Source: a virus
Direction: 5' to 3' (one strand)
Virus record (IMG/VR): IMGVR_UViG_3300036766_000116
Location: 1-25,006 of that record
DNA: 25,006 nt
Shown here in pieces: positions 4,794-10,096 of this stretch. Position 1 is the stretch's first letter, and each line of letters opens with the position of its first letter. A program made the position numbers and the translations under genes. The notes under the pieces were generated by a model. That model made no database searches and was not told the origin of the DNA. It saw nothing but the letters and a program-made list of their open reading frames with translations.

Positions 4794-5120
4794 CTACTTT
4801 TTGAGCTTTGTTGAGTCCATTGGGGCAAGCGTCGGATCACCCACCGCTGTGGCGAGTCCGTTGTAAAGCCCAATCATTTCCCTGAGTTGACCGTCATTGT
4901 CCAGTATTTCCTGTTGCCGCTTCTGAATGGCATTCTTGATCTGTGCCATTCTCTCCGAGACTTTGGATTTATCCAGTGTGACAGATTGAGCTTTCAGACT
5001 GTCCGGCCTTGACTGTCCAAAAGCCAATGAAAAGCACCCGTGAATCATTAGGCCCAAAATGGCGAAGAAAATCAGGGCTTTCAAATGGCTCGTGAGCATT
5101 TCTTTCGTTGCTGGTTTCAT
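4794..5120 (-). CDS. Small exported or membrane-anchored protein
   Basis: It starts at the ATG at 5120 behind GGGAGGACACA. The 108-residue product has an N-terminal hydrophobic helix (about 13-34, LKALIFFAILGLMIHGCFSL) that could be a membrane anchor or a signal peptide cut near AFG-QS. A mostly helical charged region follows (KVSERMAQIKNAIQKRQQEI). The Cys in IHGC weakly resembles a lipobox. It is the first gene of the lysis cassette. A spanin subunit is possible but the sequence does not show it. Confidence 0.7.
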   Translation of the reverse strand: MKPATKEMLTSHLKALIFFAILGLMIHGCFSLAFGQSRPDSLKAQSVTLDKSKVSERMAQIKNAIQKRQQEILDNDGQLREMIGLYNGLATAVGDPTLAPMDSTKLKK

Positions 5121-5140
5121 TGTGTCCTCCCAAAATTAAC

Positions 5141-5169
5141 TTGACAAACATCTGTGAATTAGCTACCTT
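5141..5169 (+). promoter_or_regulatory. Plus-strand sigma70-like promoter
   Basis: TTGACA (5141-5146), 17-bp spacer, TACCTT (5164-5169). The predicted start is near 5176-5177, exactly where GGACGTAA begins, the segment that can pair with the terminator loop downstream. It is the only clear plus-strand promoter in the window. Confidence 0.7.
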
Positions 5170-5175
5170 GCCTAT

Positions 5176-5273
5176 GGACGTAAGCAGAACAACATAGGCT
5201 TTTGTTTCATCAACCCGCCATCGCTGGCTTTTCTGTTACGTCCAAGTTGCAACAGCGTTGAGCGGGTTTTTTG
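5176..5273 (+). ncRNA. Structured short RNA or transcription attenuator with pseudoknot potential
   Basis: A transcript from the promoter at 5141-5169 would be about 97 nt and end at the terminator at 5212-5272. Its first bases, GGACGTAA-g-CAG (5176-5187), pair with CTGTTACGTCC (5233-5243) in 11 base pairs with one bulged G. The second strand lies inside the terminator loop, so the two helices interleave as an H-type pseudoknot or compete as alternatives. A small hairpin (GAACAA with TTGTTT, about 5187-5207) and GCCA-TCGC-TGGC (5217-5228) are further options. It matches no known riboswitch class I can recall. It may be a stand-alone small RNA or an attenuator of the lipoprotein gene. Confidence 0.55.
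5212..5272 (+). terminator. Intrinsic terminator within the short RNA
   Basis: AACCCGC-CA-T-CGCTG pairs with CAGCG-T-TG-A-GCGGGTT, 14 base pairs with a T-T mismatch and one bulged A around a 26-nt loop. The stem runs into TTTTTT (5267-5272). There is no T-tract on the other strand, so it acts on plus-strand transcripts. Confidence 0.75.
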
Positions 5274-5529
5274 TTCGGATAGTCCGCCGCCAAACTTGTG
5301 CGCCAGCAAGCGCTTGGAACAGGTAAGTTGTTTTTTGTTCACAAGATTCATCGGAGCAATAGAGTATCCCACCGAGCATCTCAATAGGGCCTCTCCGGGG
5401 GGAATCAAAAACCACCGCGAAGATGAAAAGACTCTTTCCGGGCTGGCAGTGAAAAACAAAGAGCACACGGCAAGCGAAGCGAGCCGTCGGCGCTGTTCAG
5501 CCGGTCTTTCAATATCTGAGAGGTTCATT
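5273..5529 (+). other. Non-coding leader before the lipoprotein gene
   Basis: No convincing gene is present on either strand. CAAACTT (5291-5297) can pair imperfectly with AAGTTG (5325-5330), followed by TTTTTT (5331-5336), which might be a weak second terminator. CAAGCGCTTG (5307-5316) is a 10-bp palindrome. Further on are hairpins CGGC-aagcgaagcga-GCCG (about 5468-5486) and CTG-TT-CAG just before the ribosome-binding site. An open plus-strand frame crosses the region, but it lacks a ribosome-binding site and has a low-complexity, unprotein-like composition. Confidence 0.45.
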
Positions 5530-5859
5530 ATGAAAACCTTATCCTTCATCCTACTCGCTCTCTTAGTCGTTGGATGCTCACTTGAGAATCCGGTGGAATC
5601 AGTGCCGGAATGGACACCGACAACGAGCTACTACCTCTCAATAAGTCAAACCGATTTTCCGAGTCTCACAAAGATCGACGTGTATCTCAACTACGTTCTC
5701 CCCCAACCAAAAGCCGTGCGCCTTGATGTCGGGCAATTGTCATTCAGTACAGACAACCTCATCATAGTCAACCCCGCCCGTGACGTGAAATATTTTCTGT
5801 CCTCGTTTCTGTTTGACAAATCCGTAACGGGACAAATCAGGGTTTTCGTTAAAGATTAG
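5530..5859 (+). CDS. Small lipoprotein, moron-like
   Basis: The only convincing plus-strand gene. It starts at the ATG at 5530 behind GAGAGG and encodes 109 residues. MKTLSFILLALLVVGCS is a clear lipoprotein signal peptide with lipobox VVGC (Cys16), followed by Ser, which usually sends lipoproteins to the outer membrane. The mature part is about 94 residues and beta-rich (TSYYLSISQTDFPSLTKIDV, VGQLSFSTDNLIIVN, QIRVFVKD), suggesting a small beta-sandwich. Its stop overlaps the fibre gene's stop by four bases, tail to tail. Late transcription would run antisense through it, so it is probably made when late genes are off. Phage lipoproteins often block superinfection (for example T5 Llp), but the target here is unknown. 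Confidence 0.8.
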   Translation: MKTLSFILLALLVVGCSLENPVESVPEWTPTTSYYLSISQTDFPSLTKIDVYLNYVLPQPKAVRLDVGQLSFSTDNLIIVNPARDVKYFLSSFLFDKSVTGQIRVFVKD

Positions 5860-8735
5860 TCCACCACTAATACATTGACCGTTACACCGTTGATTGTGAT
5901 TGCCCGCTTGTAAACCTGCACATCGTGTACATCTGCGATTGTCGTGAGATATTGTGCATTGGGTGAAAAAGCCGTCTTCGTTCCATAGGCAGATGTGACG
6001 TAACCGTTCGCCGCAGACCAAATAGTATTACCGTTAAATGTGTGCGTAGCACCCGTGAACGCTATCGCAGCGTAAGCGCCCGTGCTTCCAGCGGTGAGGG
6101 ATATGTTTTGATTCGCACCCGATGAAAAAGTAATCGAACCGCTTATAGCTGTTGCATTCCAGTTGGCACAAGAAAAAGACAACTCATCGTTTGAAGAGAT
6201 GCTCAGGCTTGGATATGACCCAGCAAACGCGTTCACGCTCCCACCATATCCTCCGGCAGTATAGAAATCTACGTAACCATAACCAGTCCCTGACCCAACA
6301 AGCACCCTTGCCCCGCTTGCTGTTGTTGTGATCGTTCCTGTTATCGTCGCACTCGACGCCGTCAACACCCCCGCCTCTGTCACCCTGAACGCTGCACTCG
6401 AAGGCGTTGCGTGTCCAGCCCAAAAACGAATATCATCCCCTCCCGTTACTGCTGAGGATATTCCAACCGTTCCAGTGGAGGCGGTTAGATTTGTTGCAGC
6501 AAGCGTCCAACCACCGATTGTGCCAGAGGTTGCCGTGATTGCGCCTGCCTTTGTAACGCTGAAAGGTGCGCTTGCCGCCGTAGCATTGCCTGCCCAGATG
6601 CGGTAGGTTGCGTCTGCGCCACTTAAGATAGCTACGTCGTTTCCAGTGCCTGCGGTAATGGAGGTTGAAGCGGATATTTGCGTTCCCGTGATTGTTGCCG
6701 ATGCGATTTGAGTTGCTGTAATAGTATTCGCCGCTATCTCAGAGGCCGTGATTGTGTTCGCAACGATGTTACCTGCTGCAATAGTATTCGCCGCTATTTT
6801 CGCACCCGTGATTGTTGTGGCCGCGATTTCTGATGCCGTGATTGTCAATGCAGCGATGTTGGCAGCCCTGACCGTGTGTGCTGCGATATCTGGCCCAGAA
6901 ATACTTCCATCTTTGAGCTTGGTACTGTCCAGCGTCTCGCTTGTTATCTTTGTTCCGTTGATTGTCAGGTTGGCAATTTGAGCCGCGGTGATCGTGAGGT
7001 TCGCAATGTTGCCCGCCTGAATTGTTGCGAGGTCTATATTCCCGCCCGTTACCGTATTAGCTGCAATGTTCCCGCCTGCAATCGTGGCTGATGCAATCAA
7101 ACCACCCGTGATTGTACCAGAAACAATATTCGTTCCCGTGATCGTGGCTGATGCAATCTTTGATCCAGTAACCGTCGCGTTAACGAGATTTGATCCCGCA
7201 ATTGTAGCTGATGCGATGTTTGAACCCGCGATAGTAGCCGCGGCGATGTCGGTTCCCGTTATTGTAGCGTTCTGAATTTCATTTGAAGTTATAGTCCCCG
7301 CCGCTATCTTGGCCGCGGTTATACTGACGTTGGCGATATTTGATCCGTCCAGGGCCATCGTGATTCCACCCGTTGCGGTAAGCGTAGCCACGCCGGACGA
7401 ATTTACATCGATTGTAAACTTCTGCCCTGAATTATATCCAAATGTCGCCTGAGTCCCGCCTATATTCAAAACGGATAACACGCCGGTTGAAGTGACATTC
7501 CCCGCCGTGTTGATCCCACCGCTCCCAGTGAAAAAGGAAGCGCCGTCGATAGTCTTATTACTCAAGCGCGACCCGATGTATGCAGATTCTACGGTATCGC
7601 CTTTCCACGCCGCGTTGATGAAAGACGTGTCCGAGTTCTCAAATATCTTCGTTGCTTGATAATACCAATCGGTGAAAAAAGTCACGTCATTGCCAAAGGC
7701 AGAGGTTCCCCCAACGTTGAATAGGGCTGAGTAGGTTGTGGTATCGCTCAAAGCCGATGGAATATAAACCTTGACCCCAGCCGTATCGGTGCGAATGAAA
7801 GTAGTCCTCACCCATCCGCCAGCTGTGCCCCCCGCGCCACCTCCAGATCCGCCTTGAGCCAAAGAAACGCGTACGCCTGAATTGCGTGTGAAGTAGAGTG
7901 AGTCACCCGACATTTCCAATGCGCCGACTTCGGGAGAGGTAAGGAGTGTTCCGTTGGTAAATTTCATCGGGCCCGTGCCTGCCGTTGCCGTGCCCGCTGG
8001 GAGTTCAAGCCATGCAGTAGGAGCCGAGATACTTGCGGCTGTCCCAAGTTTTAATCCAGTCCCCCACAAGGCGAGCGGAATGGTCGCGGTTACTGTTCCT
8101 ATTGGCGTTACTCTAATTTGCACTCTTGTTCCGGAAGCCGTAGTTGTGAAGGTCTCGGCTGCAACCAGCTCGATGGAAGCGTTGGTTACAGACGAGATGG
8201 TTGAATTGTTTTGTCCGCGGAATCCGAGTTGAACCTGGTCACCCGCAAGCACCTGAGTTGGCGAGGCAATGCTTCCGCGCGCCACTCTCCATATCTGCCG
8301 AGTCACCGCCAGGCCTGAGCCGGTATAGGTGGAAAACTGAGTCAAGACATTTGCGGCTCCGGGAGCCGTGTATTCCTTTGTTATTTGAACCGTGGCAGTA
8401 TTGTTTACGCCGCCCAAAGATACCGTCCCGTTTGCCAAAGCCCTCACGTGAGATTTTACCGTATCAAGCCCCTTTGACATTGCCTCAATGCCTGAGTAGA
8501 TATCAGTCTCAGAGCGTCCGAGTGAACGGGCACGGAGCAACAGGCTGAAAGCATCGCCGGACTTCCCACGATAAAGACTCAGCAAGATAGAATCGCCGCG
8601 AGTAAGTGCCTGAAGCGAAGTGTAGTTTGTCGTTGTGTCTTTGAGATGTTGTGGTGTTGTCCATTCTGCGCGCGGCCTGATAGTCTGACCTGAAAGACTA
8701 CTGACAAAGAGAAGCAAGAGAATGAATTTTTTCAT
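5856..8735 (-). CDS. Long tail fibre with decapeptide repeats and N-terminal signal peptide
   Basis: This 959-residue protein is the last tail gene. Residues 1-17 (MKKFILLLLFVSSLSGQ) look like a cleavable Sec signal, unusual for a virion fibre. Residues 20-100 are helical and polar. Residues 100-460 are beta-rich and Gly/Ser/Thr-rich, with a Gly-rich hinge (GGSGGGAGGTAGG, 295-307). Residues 461-690 are 23 consecutive decapeptides. The C-terminal ~260 residues repeat TATSGTIGGW- and TASSATITGT-type segments and end in a short beta domain (AITINGVTVNVLVVD). Repeated beta stretches fit a trimeric, shaft-like receptor-binding fibre. The ATG overlaps the preceding stop (ATGA), with GGTGG upstream, so the start with the signal peptide is well supported. 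No chaperone or peptidase tail domain is recognised. Confidence 0.85.
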   Translation of the reverse strand: MKKFILLLLFVSSLSGQTIRPRAEWTTPQHLKDTTTNYTSLQALTRGDSILLSLYRGKSGDAFSLLLRARSLGRSETDIYSGIEAMSKGLDTVKSHVRALANGTVSLGGVNNTATVQITKEYTAPGAANVLTQFSTYTGSGLAVTRQIWRVARGSIASPTQVLAGDQVQLGFRGQNNSTISSVTNASIELVAAETFTTTASGTRVQIRVTPIGTVTATIPLALWGTGLKLGTAASISAPTAWLELPAGTATAGTGPMKFTNGTLLTSPEVGALEMSGDSLYFTRNSGVRVSLAQGGSGGGAGGTAGGWVRTTFIRTDTAGVKVYIPSALSDTTTYSALFNVGGTSAFGNDVTFFTDWYYQATKIFENSDTSFINAAWKGDTVESAYIGSRLSNKTIDGASFFTGSGGINTAGNVTSTGVLSVLNIGGTQATFGYNSGQKFTIDVNSSGVATLTATGGITMALDGSNIANVSITAAKIAAGTITSNEIQNATITGTDIAAATIAGSNIASATIAGSNLVNATVTGSKIASATITGTNIVSGTITGGLIASATIAGGNIAANTVTGGNIDLATIQAGNIANLTITAAQIANLTINGTKITSETLDSTKLKDGSISGPDIAAHTVRAANIAALTITASEIAATTITGAKIAANTIAAGNIVANTITASEIAANTITATQIASATITGTQISASTSITAGTGNDVAILSGADATYRIWAGNATAASAPFSVTKAGAITATSGTIGGWTLAATNLTASTGTVGISSAVTGGDDIRFWAGHATPSSAAFRVTEAGVLTASSATITGTITTTASGARVLVGSGTGYGYVDFYTAGGYGGSVNAFAGSYPSLSISSNDELSFSCANWNATAISGSITFSSGANQNISLTAGSTGAYAAIAFTGATHTFNGNTIWSAANGYVTSAYGTKTAFSPNAQYLTTIADVHDVQVYKRAITINGVTVNVLVVD
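6666..7355 (-). repeat. 23 degenerate 30-bp repeats encoding decapeptides
   Basis: Residues 461-690 of the fibre align as back-to-back units of ten, consensus T-I-[TA]-[GA]-x-x-I-A-x-[ANT], such as TIAGSNIASA and TITASEIAAN. Period is strict with no insertions. Hydrophobic Ile at positions 2 and 7 and small residues between fit a beta-solenoid or triple beta-spiral. The DNA has diverged much more than the protein, so the array is old and under selection. Confidence 0.9.
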
Positions 8736-9451: not shown

Positions 9452-9937
9452 TTACTCTCTTGTACCAAAATTCAAAAAGGCAAATTCACCAAATAGCTTT
9501 TGGGCTTCTTCATCATAAACCCGGGCCGCCTCTTTTTCATCACAAAAAACGCCAAGATGAATTTGCTCCCCATTATGCTGGACGGCTACTTTCCATTTAT
9601 GTGCTGCTCGACTCCATGATACTCCCTTGTATTGGCTTGATCCACCTTTTGAATTTCTCATATTTTGGAGATTTTGACTTGGACTACAAATTCTAAGATT
9701 ATCTCTACGGTTATCTAATCCATTGTGATTTTTATGATCTACACAATTTCCTTCTCTGGCATTCATAATCCTGCGATGCATCCGTTCTCGCCAATGACTT
9801 CCATTTTTATATATATCGCGCACCGCATAAGAACAGTATCTCCCGGTAGATGCTTGCCATTGATATTGCGATAAATCTTCAAAGTCTTCATCGTCAACGA
9901 GCGCGACCATCCCGCGAGTTAAAGGAATCGTTTTCAT
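9452..9937 (-). CDS. HNH homing endonuclease with AP2 DNA-binding domain
   Basis: The ATG at 9937 follows TGAGGCATGAT; upstream codons in the same frame are not protein-like. Of 161 residues, 1-50 form an N-terminal beta-rich part seen in phage HNH proteins (PLTRGMVALVDDEDF, QYQWQA). The HNH_3-type core spans about 52-92: MHRRIMNA, then VDHKNHNGLDNRRDNLRICS with the His-Asn metal-site residues. An AP2 domain follows (102-157: YKGVSW, WKVAVQ, HLGVF, EAARVYDEEAQKLFGEFAFLNF). This is a free-standing homing enzyme that nicks or cuts a cognate allele and copies itself in. The region looks AT-richer than its neighbours, consistent with separate origin. It sits exactly between two related tail genes. 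Confidence 0.93.
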   Translation of the reverse strand: MKTIPLTRGMVALVDDEDFEDLSQYQWQASTGRYCSYAVRDIYKNGSHWRERMHRRIMNAREGNCVDHKNHNGLDNRRDNLRICSPSQNLQNMRNSKGGSSQYKGVSWSRAAHKWKVAVQHNGEQIHLGVFCDEKEAARVYDEEAQKLFGEFAFLNFGTRE

Positions 9938-9976
9938 ATCATGCCTCACAAAATGGAAATGCCCAAAACCGCGTTG

Positions 9977-10055
9977 AGTCGTCAGTGAAGGAACGAGTCC
10001 CACGCTGCAACGGGCTTCGGGCAATCCATAAAAAGAAAATCCTTCACCAACGACT
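9977..10055 (-). promoter_or_regulatory. Long stem-loop in the endonuclease leader
   Basis: Minus-strand AGTCGTTGGTGAAGGA (10055-10040) pairs over all 16 bases with TCCTTCACTGACGACT (9992-9977). Two positions are G-U wobbles in minus-strand RNA but would be mismatches on the plus strand, favouring a minus-strand RNA structure. The 47-nt loop holds GCCC/GGG-rich segments. It fills most of the 159-nt gap before the HNH gene and may limit read-through translation or be part of the mobile unit. Confidence 0.6.
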
Positions 10056-10096
10056 GAGAACATGATAAGCCTTTTTGTTCTAATTATCAAATATCG

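Follow-up and report, generated by a model that had tools for sequence, protein, structure and literature searches.

A candidate structured RNA of about 335 nt conserved between late genes of two Mu-like phages

Main

A segment at positions 5141–5273 of a phage genome was originally predicted to carry a compact RNA, running from a sigma-70-like promoter to an intrinsic terminator through interleaved helices, that would act either on its own or as an attenuator of the lipoprotein gene downstream. Is this segment a self-contained unit, or part of a larger one? We addressed this question in the window, by which we mean the whole stretch of 25,006 nucleotides analysed, a 25-kb virus record of a Mu-like phage (terminase, phrog_113 portal, and homologues of gp36 and gp37). 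The minus strand carries almost all genes of the window and is the direction of the late operon, and the locus occupies a 736-base gap between a tail-fibre gene (5856–8735, minus strand) and a gene for a 108-aa secreted protein (4794–5120, minus strand). The element described below and a lipoprotein open reading frame (ORF) lie opposite, on the plus strand. Our preferred reading, to which we give a probability of roughly 0.48, is that a structured RNA of about 335 nt with a 5′ pseudoknot serves as leader to a small accessory-gene cassette that is read in the direction opposite to the late genes.

Elsewhere on the minus strand, the tail-fibre protein contains long runs of imperfect IA-(A/G)-T-I-T repeats, 33-nt tandem repeats at 1–330, within a gene truncated at the contig end, encode an 11-residue repeat (ALAEYKKV-K/T-AQ), and an HNH/AP2-type homing endonuclease gene with foreign codon usage (score −0.046) sits amid tail genes at 9452–10090.

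Candidate promoter and predicted start

The candidate promoter occupies 5141–5169 on the plus strand, with a −35 element TTGACA (5141–5146) and a −10 element TACCTT (5164–5169) separated by a 17-bp spacer; these positions put the predicted +1 at G5176, in keeping with the RNA start proposed at about 5176. As the −10 element matches at just 3 of 6 positions, a generic sigma-70 scan missed this promoter. A second copy of TTGACA-N17-TA(C/T)CTT occurs in the window at 2300–2272 (minus strand; TTGACA-N17-TATCTT), between a terminator and the next gene. That terminator, a strong one at about 2415–2375 (minus strand), ends the late operon, and the second promoter copy lies directly downstream of it. 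Across 61 genomes of the class holding the closest terminase relative, TTGACA-N17-TAYCTTG gave about 50 matches, against about 10 for the reversed control. Judged by its sequence, the promoter at 5141–5169 is credible. In genome G020, TTGACA-N17-TAYCTTG occurs 12 times and several of the occurrences have almost the same spacer (TTGACAATCCTAGAATTGCAGCGTATCTTG), which suggests a putative repeated promoter-bearing element in that genome.

Conservation in a distant homologue

Patterns back-translated from a minus-strand reading of 5172–5549, used purely as a DNA search device, recovered a sole homologue, L109 (IMG/VR contig 3300035564_000013, 41 kb), from a Mu-like phage syntenic with the window across the structural region. 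A protein-coding interpretation of 5172–5549 on the minus strand was rejected, as the indels that separate the two phages have lengths not divisible by three and leave no reading frame intact, and neither strand scores as coding. Positions 5109–5509 of the window align with L109 at 80% DNA identity over 417 bases, whereas 12 orthologous genes are 41–62% identical in DNA and 30–59% in protein. The retention of 80% identity, compared with approximately 40–60% in the surrounding genes, points to an undescribed structured phage RNA.

Identity by 30-base block is 40% at 5130–5159 and 97% at 5220–5249. Upstream of G5176 the two phages have diverged, yet TTGAC and A-CTTG are kept at exact spacing to GGACG; the L109 counterpart of the promoter reads TTGACT-N17-GAACTT, at the same 35-base distance to GGACG, and its −10 element (GAACTT) is a poor match. 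Because the upstream sequence has diverged except for these motifs, strong conservation spans the predicted start (G5176, GGACGTAA) to about 5510, delimiting an element of about 335 nt on the plus strand (5176–5510; 80% nucleotide identity to L109 5343–5002). Its most conserved part is a central block at 5340–5429 (87–97% identical per 30 bases).

The element lies at the edge of a variable tail-fibre gene, and conservation by itself is no proof of transcription; a DNA-level element might therefore be considered, be it a recombination boundary at the tail-fibre gene, a site of replication or of packaging, or else a mobile element. The promoter motifs TTGAC and A-CTTG at the exact boundary spacing argue against this, as do the position of the sole homologue at the same place in a syntenic phage and the compensatory changes, which favour one strand (see below). 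Nor was a reverse transcriptase, the mark of diversity-generating retroelements, detected, and that candidate was rejected after no PF00078 match appeared in the record of the window or of L109, both possibly incomplete. We regard a DNA-level explanation as quite improbable.

Crossing helices at the 5′ end

The predicted 5′ end of the RNA falls within a helix, S1, in which GGACGTAA-G-CAGAA (5176–5189, plus strand, G5184 bulged) pairs with TTCTGTTACGTCC (5231–5243, plus strand). The original prediction gave this helix 11 bp; the pairing and its single bulged G stand, and two more A–U pairs bring the length to 13 bp (14 bp at the DNA level with 5175/5244). Nowhere in the window does another one-bulge inverted repeat within 110 bases reach the length of S1, and helices of at least 14 bp arose 17 times in 200 simulated 25-kb windows (approximately 0.085 per window). 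The coincidence of its start with the predicted +1 would make a chance origin much less likely, though the feature was picked post hoc. The second helix, S2, joins 5212–5226 to 5253–5268 (plus strand) through 14 bp (7 + 2 + 5) with one bulged A, a U·U mismatch and a 26-nt loop. The S1 3′ arm lies in this loop and in neither arm of the terminator stem, and alternative pairings of 5262–5272 exist.

S1 and S2 thus cross in an H-type arrangement, and both are kept in L109, our one homologue; the two helices were expected to interleave, and uncompensated change in their arms is not what the distant homologue displays. Taken alone, S2 has a computed energy of −21.4 kcal/mol and S1 of −14.5 kcal/mol, values so near each other that the two helices could compete or coexist as a pseudoknot. 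The loops, at 22, 4 and 9 nt, would probably accommodate S1 and S2 simultaneously. In a nested cotranscriptional ensemble, S1 comes first (chain to about 5263) and S2 follows after 5268 has been made.

S2 is followed by TTTTTT (5267–5272, plus strand), read as a terminator tail and tentatively paired with 5426–5429. The window therefore presents, at 5212–5272, a GC-rich stem and T-run as in an attenuator, and this tail, together with the formation of S1 before S2 during transcription, speaks for a promoter-to-terminator RNA of about 97 nt (5176–5272) or an S1/S2 attenuator ahead of the lipoprotein gene. In L109, however, the run reads TCTTCT although the stem is kept by compensation, conservation goes on for about 240 nt further, and a 26-nt loop is unusually long for a terminator. 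The predicted terminator accordingly retains its 14-bp stem in both phages and its T-run in the window, and the idea of a compact RNA ending at 5273 gives way to an element running to about 5510. With the stem compensated, the T-run lost and the element continuing for about 240 bases, S2 makes more sense as one limb of a longer folded RNA; in the window phage alone, transcripts might still terminate at 5272. We consider the short RNA or attenuator rather improbable, and the absence of the lipoprotein gene from L109 makes an attenuator dedicated to that gene unlikely.

Compensatory changes and strand

All 27 pairs of S1 and S2 are standard in both the window and L109. In L109 the S1 bulge is lost and one C–G pair becomes U·G, and in S2 the pair A5212–U5268 becomes G–C. 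Two hairpins lie near the 3′ end of the element on the plus strand, hairpin A at 5467–5487 (ACGGC/GCCGU; GCGGC/GCCGC in L109) and hairpin B at 5488–5503 (CGGC/GCCG; CGGU/ACCG in L109), each with a compensatory change, and the region 5440–5512 has a z-score of −4.1. Together, S1, S2 and both hairpins comprise 36 pairs, and every one of them is standard in the window as well as in L109; the pairs differ by three compensatory double changes and a single C–G to U·G change. When partners were slid as a control, 32–49% were paired; a letter-shuffle control gave 61 of 500, which is not decisive with only two sequences. Within 5176–5268, substitutions fall at 3 of 54 paired and 9 of 39 unpaired positions (P = 0.025), and all pairs remained intact in 2% of trials that placed the substitutions at random.

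RNAalifold column-shuffle z-scores were −4.07 on the plus strand and −2.28 on the minus strand. Among conserved helices of 7 bp or longer, four on the plus strand carried a compensatory change, against a null mean of 0.24 (0 of 400 shuffles), with the caveat that two of the four share the change at 5268 and that several candidates are mutually exclusive; the minus strand had two, against a null mean of 0.35. These statistics on predicted structure favour the plus strand. A conserved intergenic structure of the minus-strand late mRNA, between the tail-fibre gene and the next late gene, would suit the direction of the late operon, and S1, S2 and both 3′ hairpins are Watson–Crick on either strand bar the one U·G. 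That pair would be an A·C mismatch in L109 S1 if read on the minus strand, where the structure signal is also weaker, and the conservation boundary coincides with the start given by the plus-strand promoter; this reading seems improbable.

Further candidate helices, partly exclusive of one another, surround the central block: 5264–5272/5426–5434, 5262–5268/5281–5287, 5394–5403/5433–5442 and a tentative long-range helix of 5280–5286 with 5439–5445 (plus strand), in which an A–U pair is G–C in L109. The covariation rests on single events, as there is one homologue only. For a two-sequence comparison the structure of the element is fairly well supported; its function is inferred.

A putatively exchangeable downstream gene

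The lipoprotein ORF (5530–5859, plus strand; 109 aa, lipobox LLVVGC) had no protein family match and is absent from L109, in which an unannotated and unrelated 39-aa single-pass membrane ORF (4993–4877, minus strand of that record) takes its place. In both phages the element stands before an ORF, on the same strand as itself, that has an upstream GAG(A)GG and starts 9–20 bases past the element, and the stop of this ORF overlaps the tail-fibre stop. The Shine–Dalgarno sequence of the lipoprotein ORF, GAGAGG (5518–5523, plus strand), is predicted to be paired, and that of the downstream ORF mostly so in both phages, a weak signal. Codon usage of the lipoprotein ORF is weakly native-like (0.087 versus about 0.2–0.3 for most genes). 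The replacement of the lipoprotein by a 39-aa membrane ORF suggests a cassette of promoter, conserved RNA and exchangeable small membrane gene, and the locus has the traits of a moron cassette: its own promoter (by motif only), opposite orientation and foreign codon usage (a weak signal).

That a different small membrane ORF stands at the same place in L109 makes a leader role possible. Under our preferred reading, an RNA would be transcribed from the promoter at 5141–5169 through 5176 to about 5510 on the plus strand, opposite the late operon. Its 5′ end would be locked in S1, and S1 crossing S2 would build an H-type pseudoknot domain, followed by the very conserved central block and then by the two 3′ hairpins. 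The 3′ end would fall just ahead of the Shine–Dalgarno sequence of a small, membrane-associated and phage-variable ORF. The element would thus be the leader (5′ UTR) of a reverse-oriented, ‘moron’-like cassette between the tail-fibre gene and the next late gene, and its fold may control the read-through, stability or translation of whichever gene is plugged in.

Unrelated downstream ORFs are explained equally well by a trans-acting RNA or a DNA site. Since the RNA is conserved and the gene is not, the main rival is that the same RNA of about 335 nt stands alone and acts in trans, by binding protein or RNA or in a virion or lysogeny role, with the ORF a mere neighbour. The RNA is far more conserved than any phage protein, a locked 5′ end and a pseudoknot suit a stable RNA, and a weak T-rich stretch follows hairpin B in both phages. 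However, the element stops immediately before the ribosome-binding site in both phages, and its 3′ end is without a strong terminator; we therefore hold the rival to be unlikely, if a serious contender. Likewise doubtful is that the element founds a new class of trans-acting phage RNAs about 335 nt in length, with a near-invariant core behind the 5′ pseudoknot, in Mu-like phages of a Bacteroidota-related clade, kept more strictly than any protein.

Database searches

The original prediction recognized no known riboswitch class, and the Rfam covariance models bear this out: none of 4,227 matched at gathering score, with chance-level matches only, up to E = 10. The element gave short chance matches only in 50,697 phage records and 72,556 plasmids, and likewise in 391 genomes of the class, 98 of one order and 395 of the phylum, sets that contained no positive control. 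Proteins of neighbouring genes (8732, 3099, 5530, 4351 and 11826) retrieved no related viral contig. Scanning IMG/VR with the S1 5′ arm gave 55 matches, 0 of which had a paired second arm, and a terminase profile found distantly related genomes only, whose examined prophage regions were without the element. The one weak match to a covariance model of the 5′ domain was a plain terminator in an AT-rich stretch, which we judged to be chance.

Comparison with known systems

Few long structured RNAs are known from phages, and most of these await an explanation. A phage RNA kept at 80% identity, against 40–60% for terminase, portal and tail proteins, probably has a function that the phage can hardly lose. 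The element offers a candidate family open to testing, in which the start, the two crossing helices and a central core are all specified. It also illustrates that the terminator-like hairpin of one genome can be a limb of a larger conserved fold.

Intrinsic-terminator attenuators and riboswitch leaders share with this locus a long 5′ leader whose helices compete or interleave and, in the window, a stem with a T-run; here, however, L109 does not keep the tail, none of the known aptamers was detected and the genes that follow in the two phages are unrelated. GOLLD and ROOL are long structured non-coding RNAs of phages and prophages with pseudoknots and unexplained function; both are larger than this element, with many GOLLD RNAs exceeding 800 nt, and are often near tRNA islands (PMC12286853). 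The element resembles them in being phage-encoded, long and strongly structured, with a predicted pseudoknot, but differs in its length of about 335 nt, its position, with the tail-fibre gene on one side and the next late gene on the other, and the lack of an Rfam match. Phage morons are accessory genes whose transcription does not depend on that of the other phage genes (PMC7067206, PMC6469090). The likeness is a small lipoprotein or membrane gene that lies in reverse orientation within the late region, behind a predicted promoter of its own; the difference is that what is conserved here is a long structured RNA, and what varies is the protein gene. GOLLD/ROOL and moron cassettes are thus the nearest kinds, and neither fits fully.
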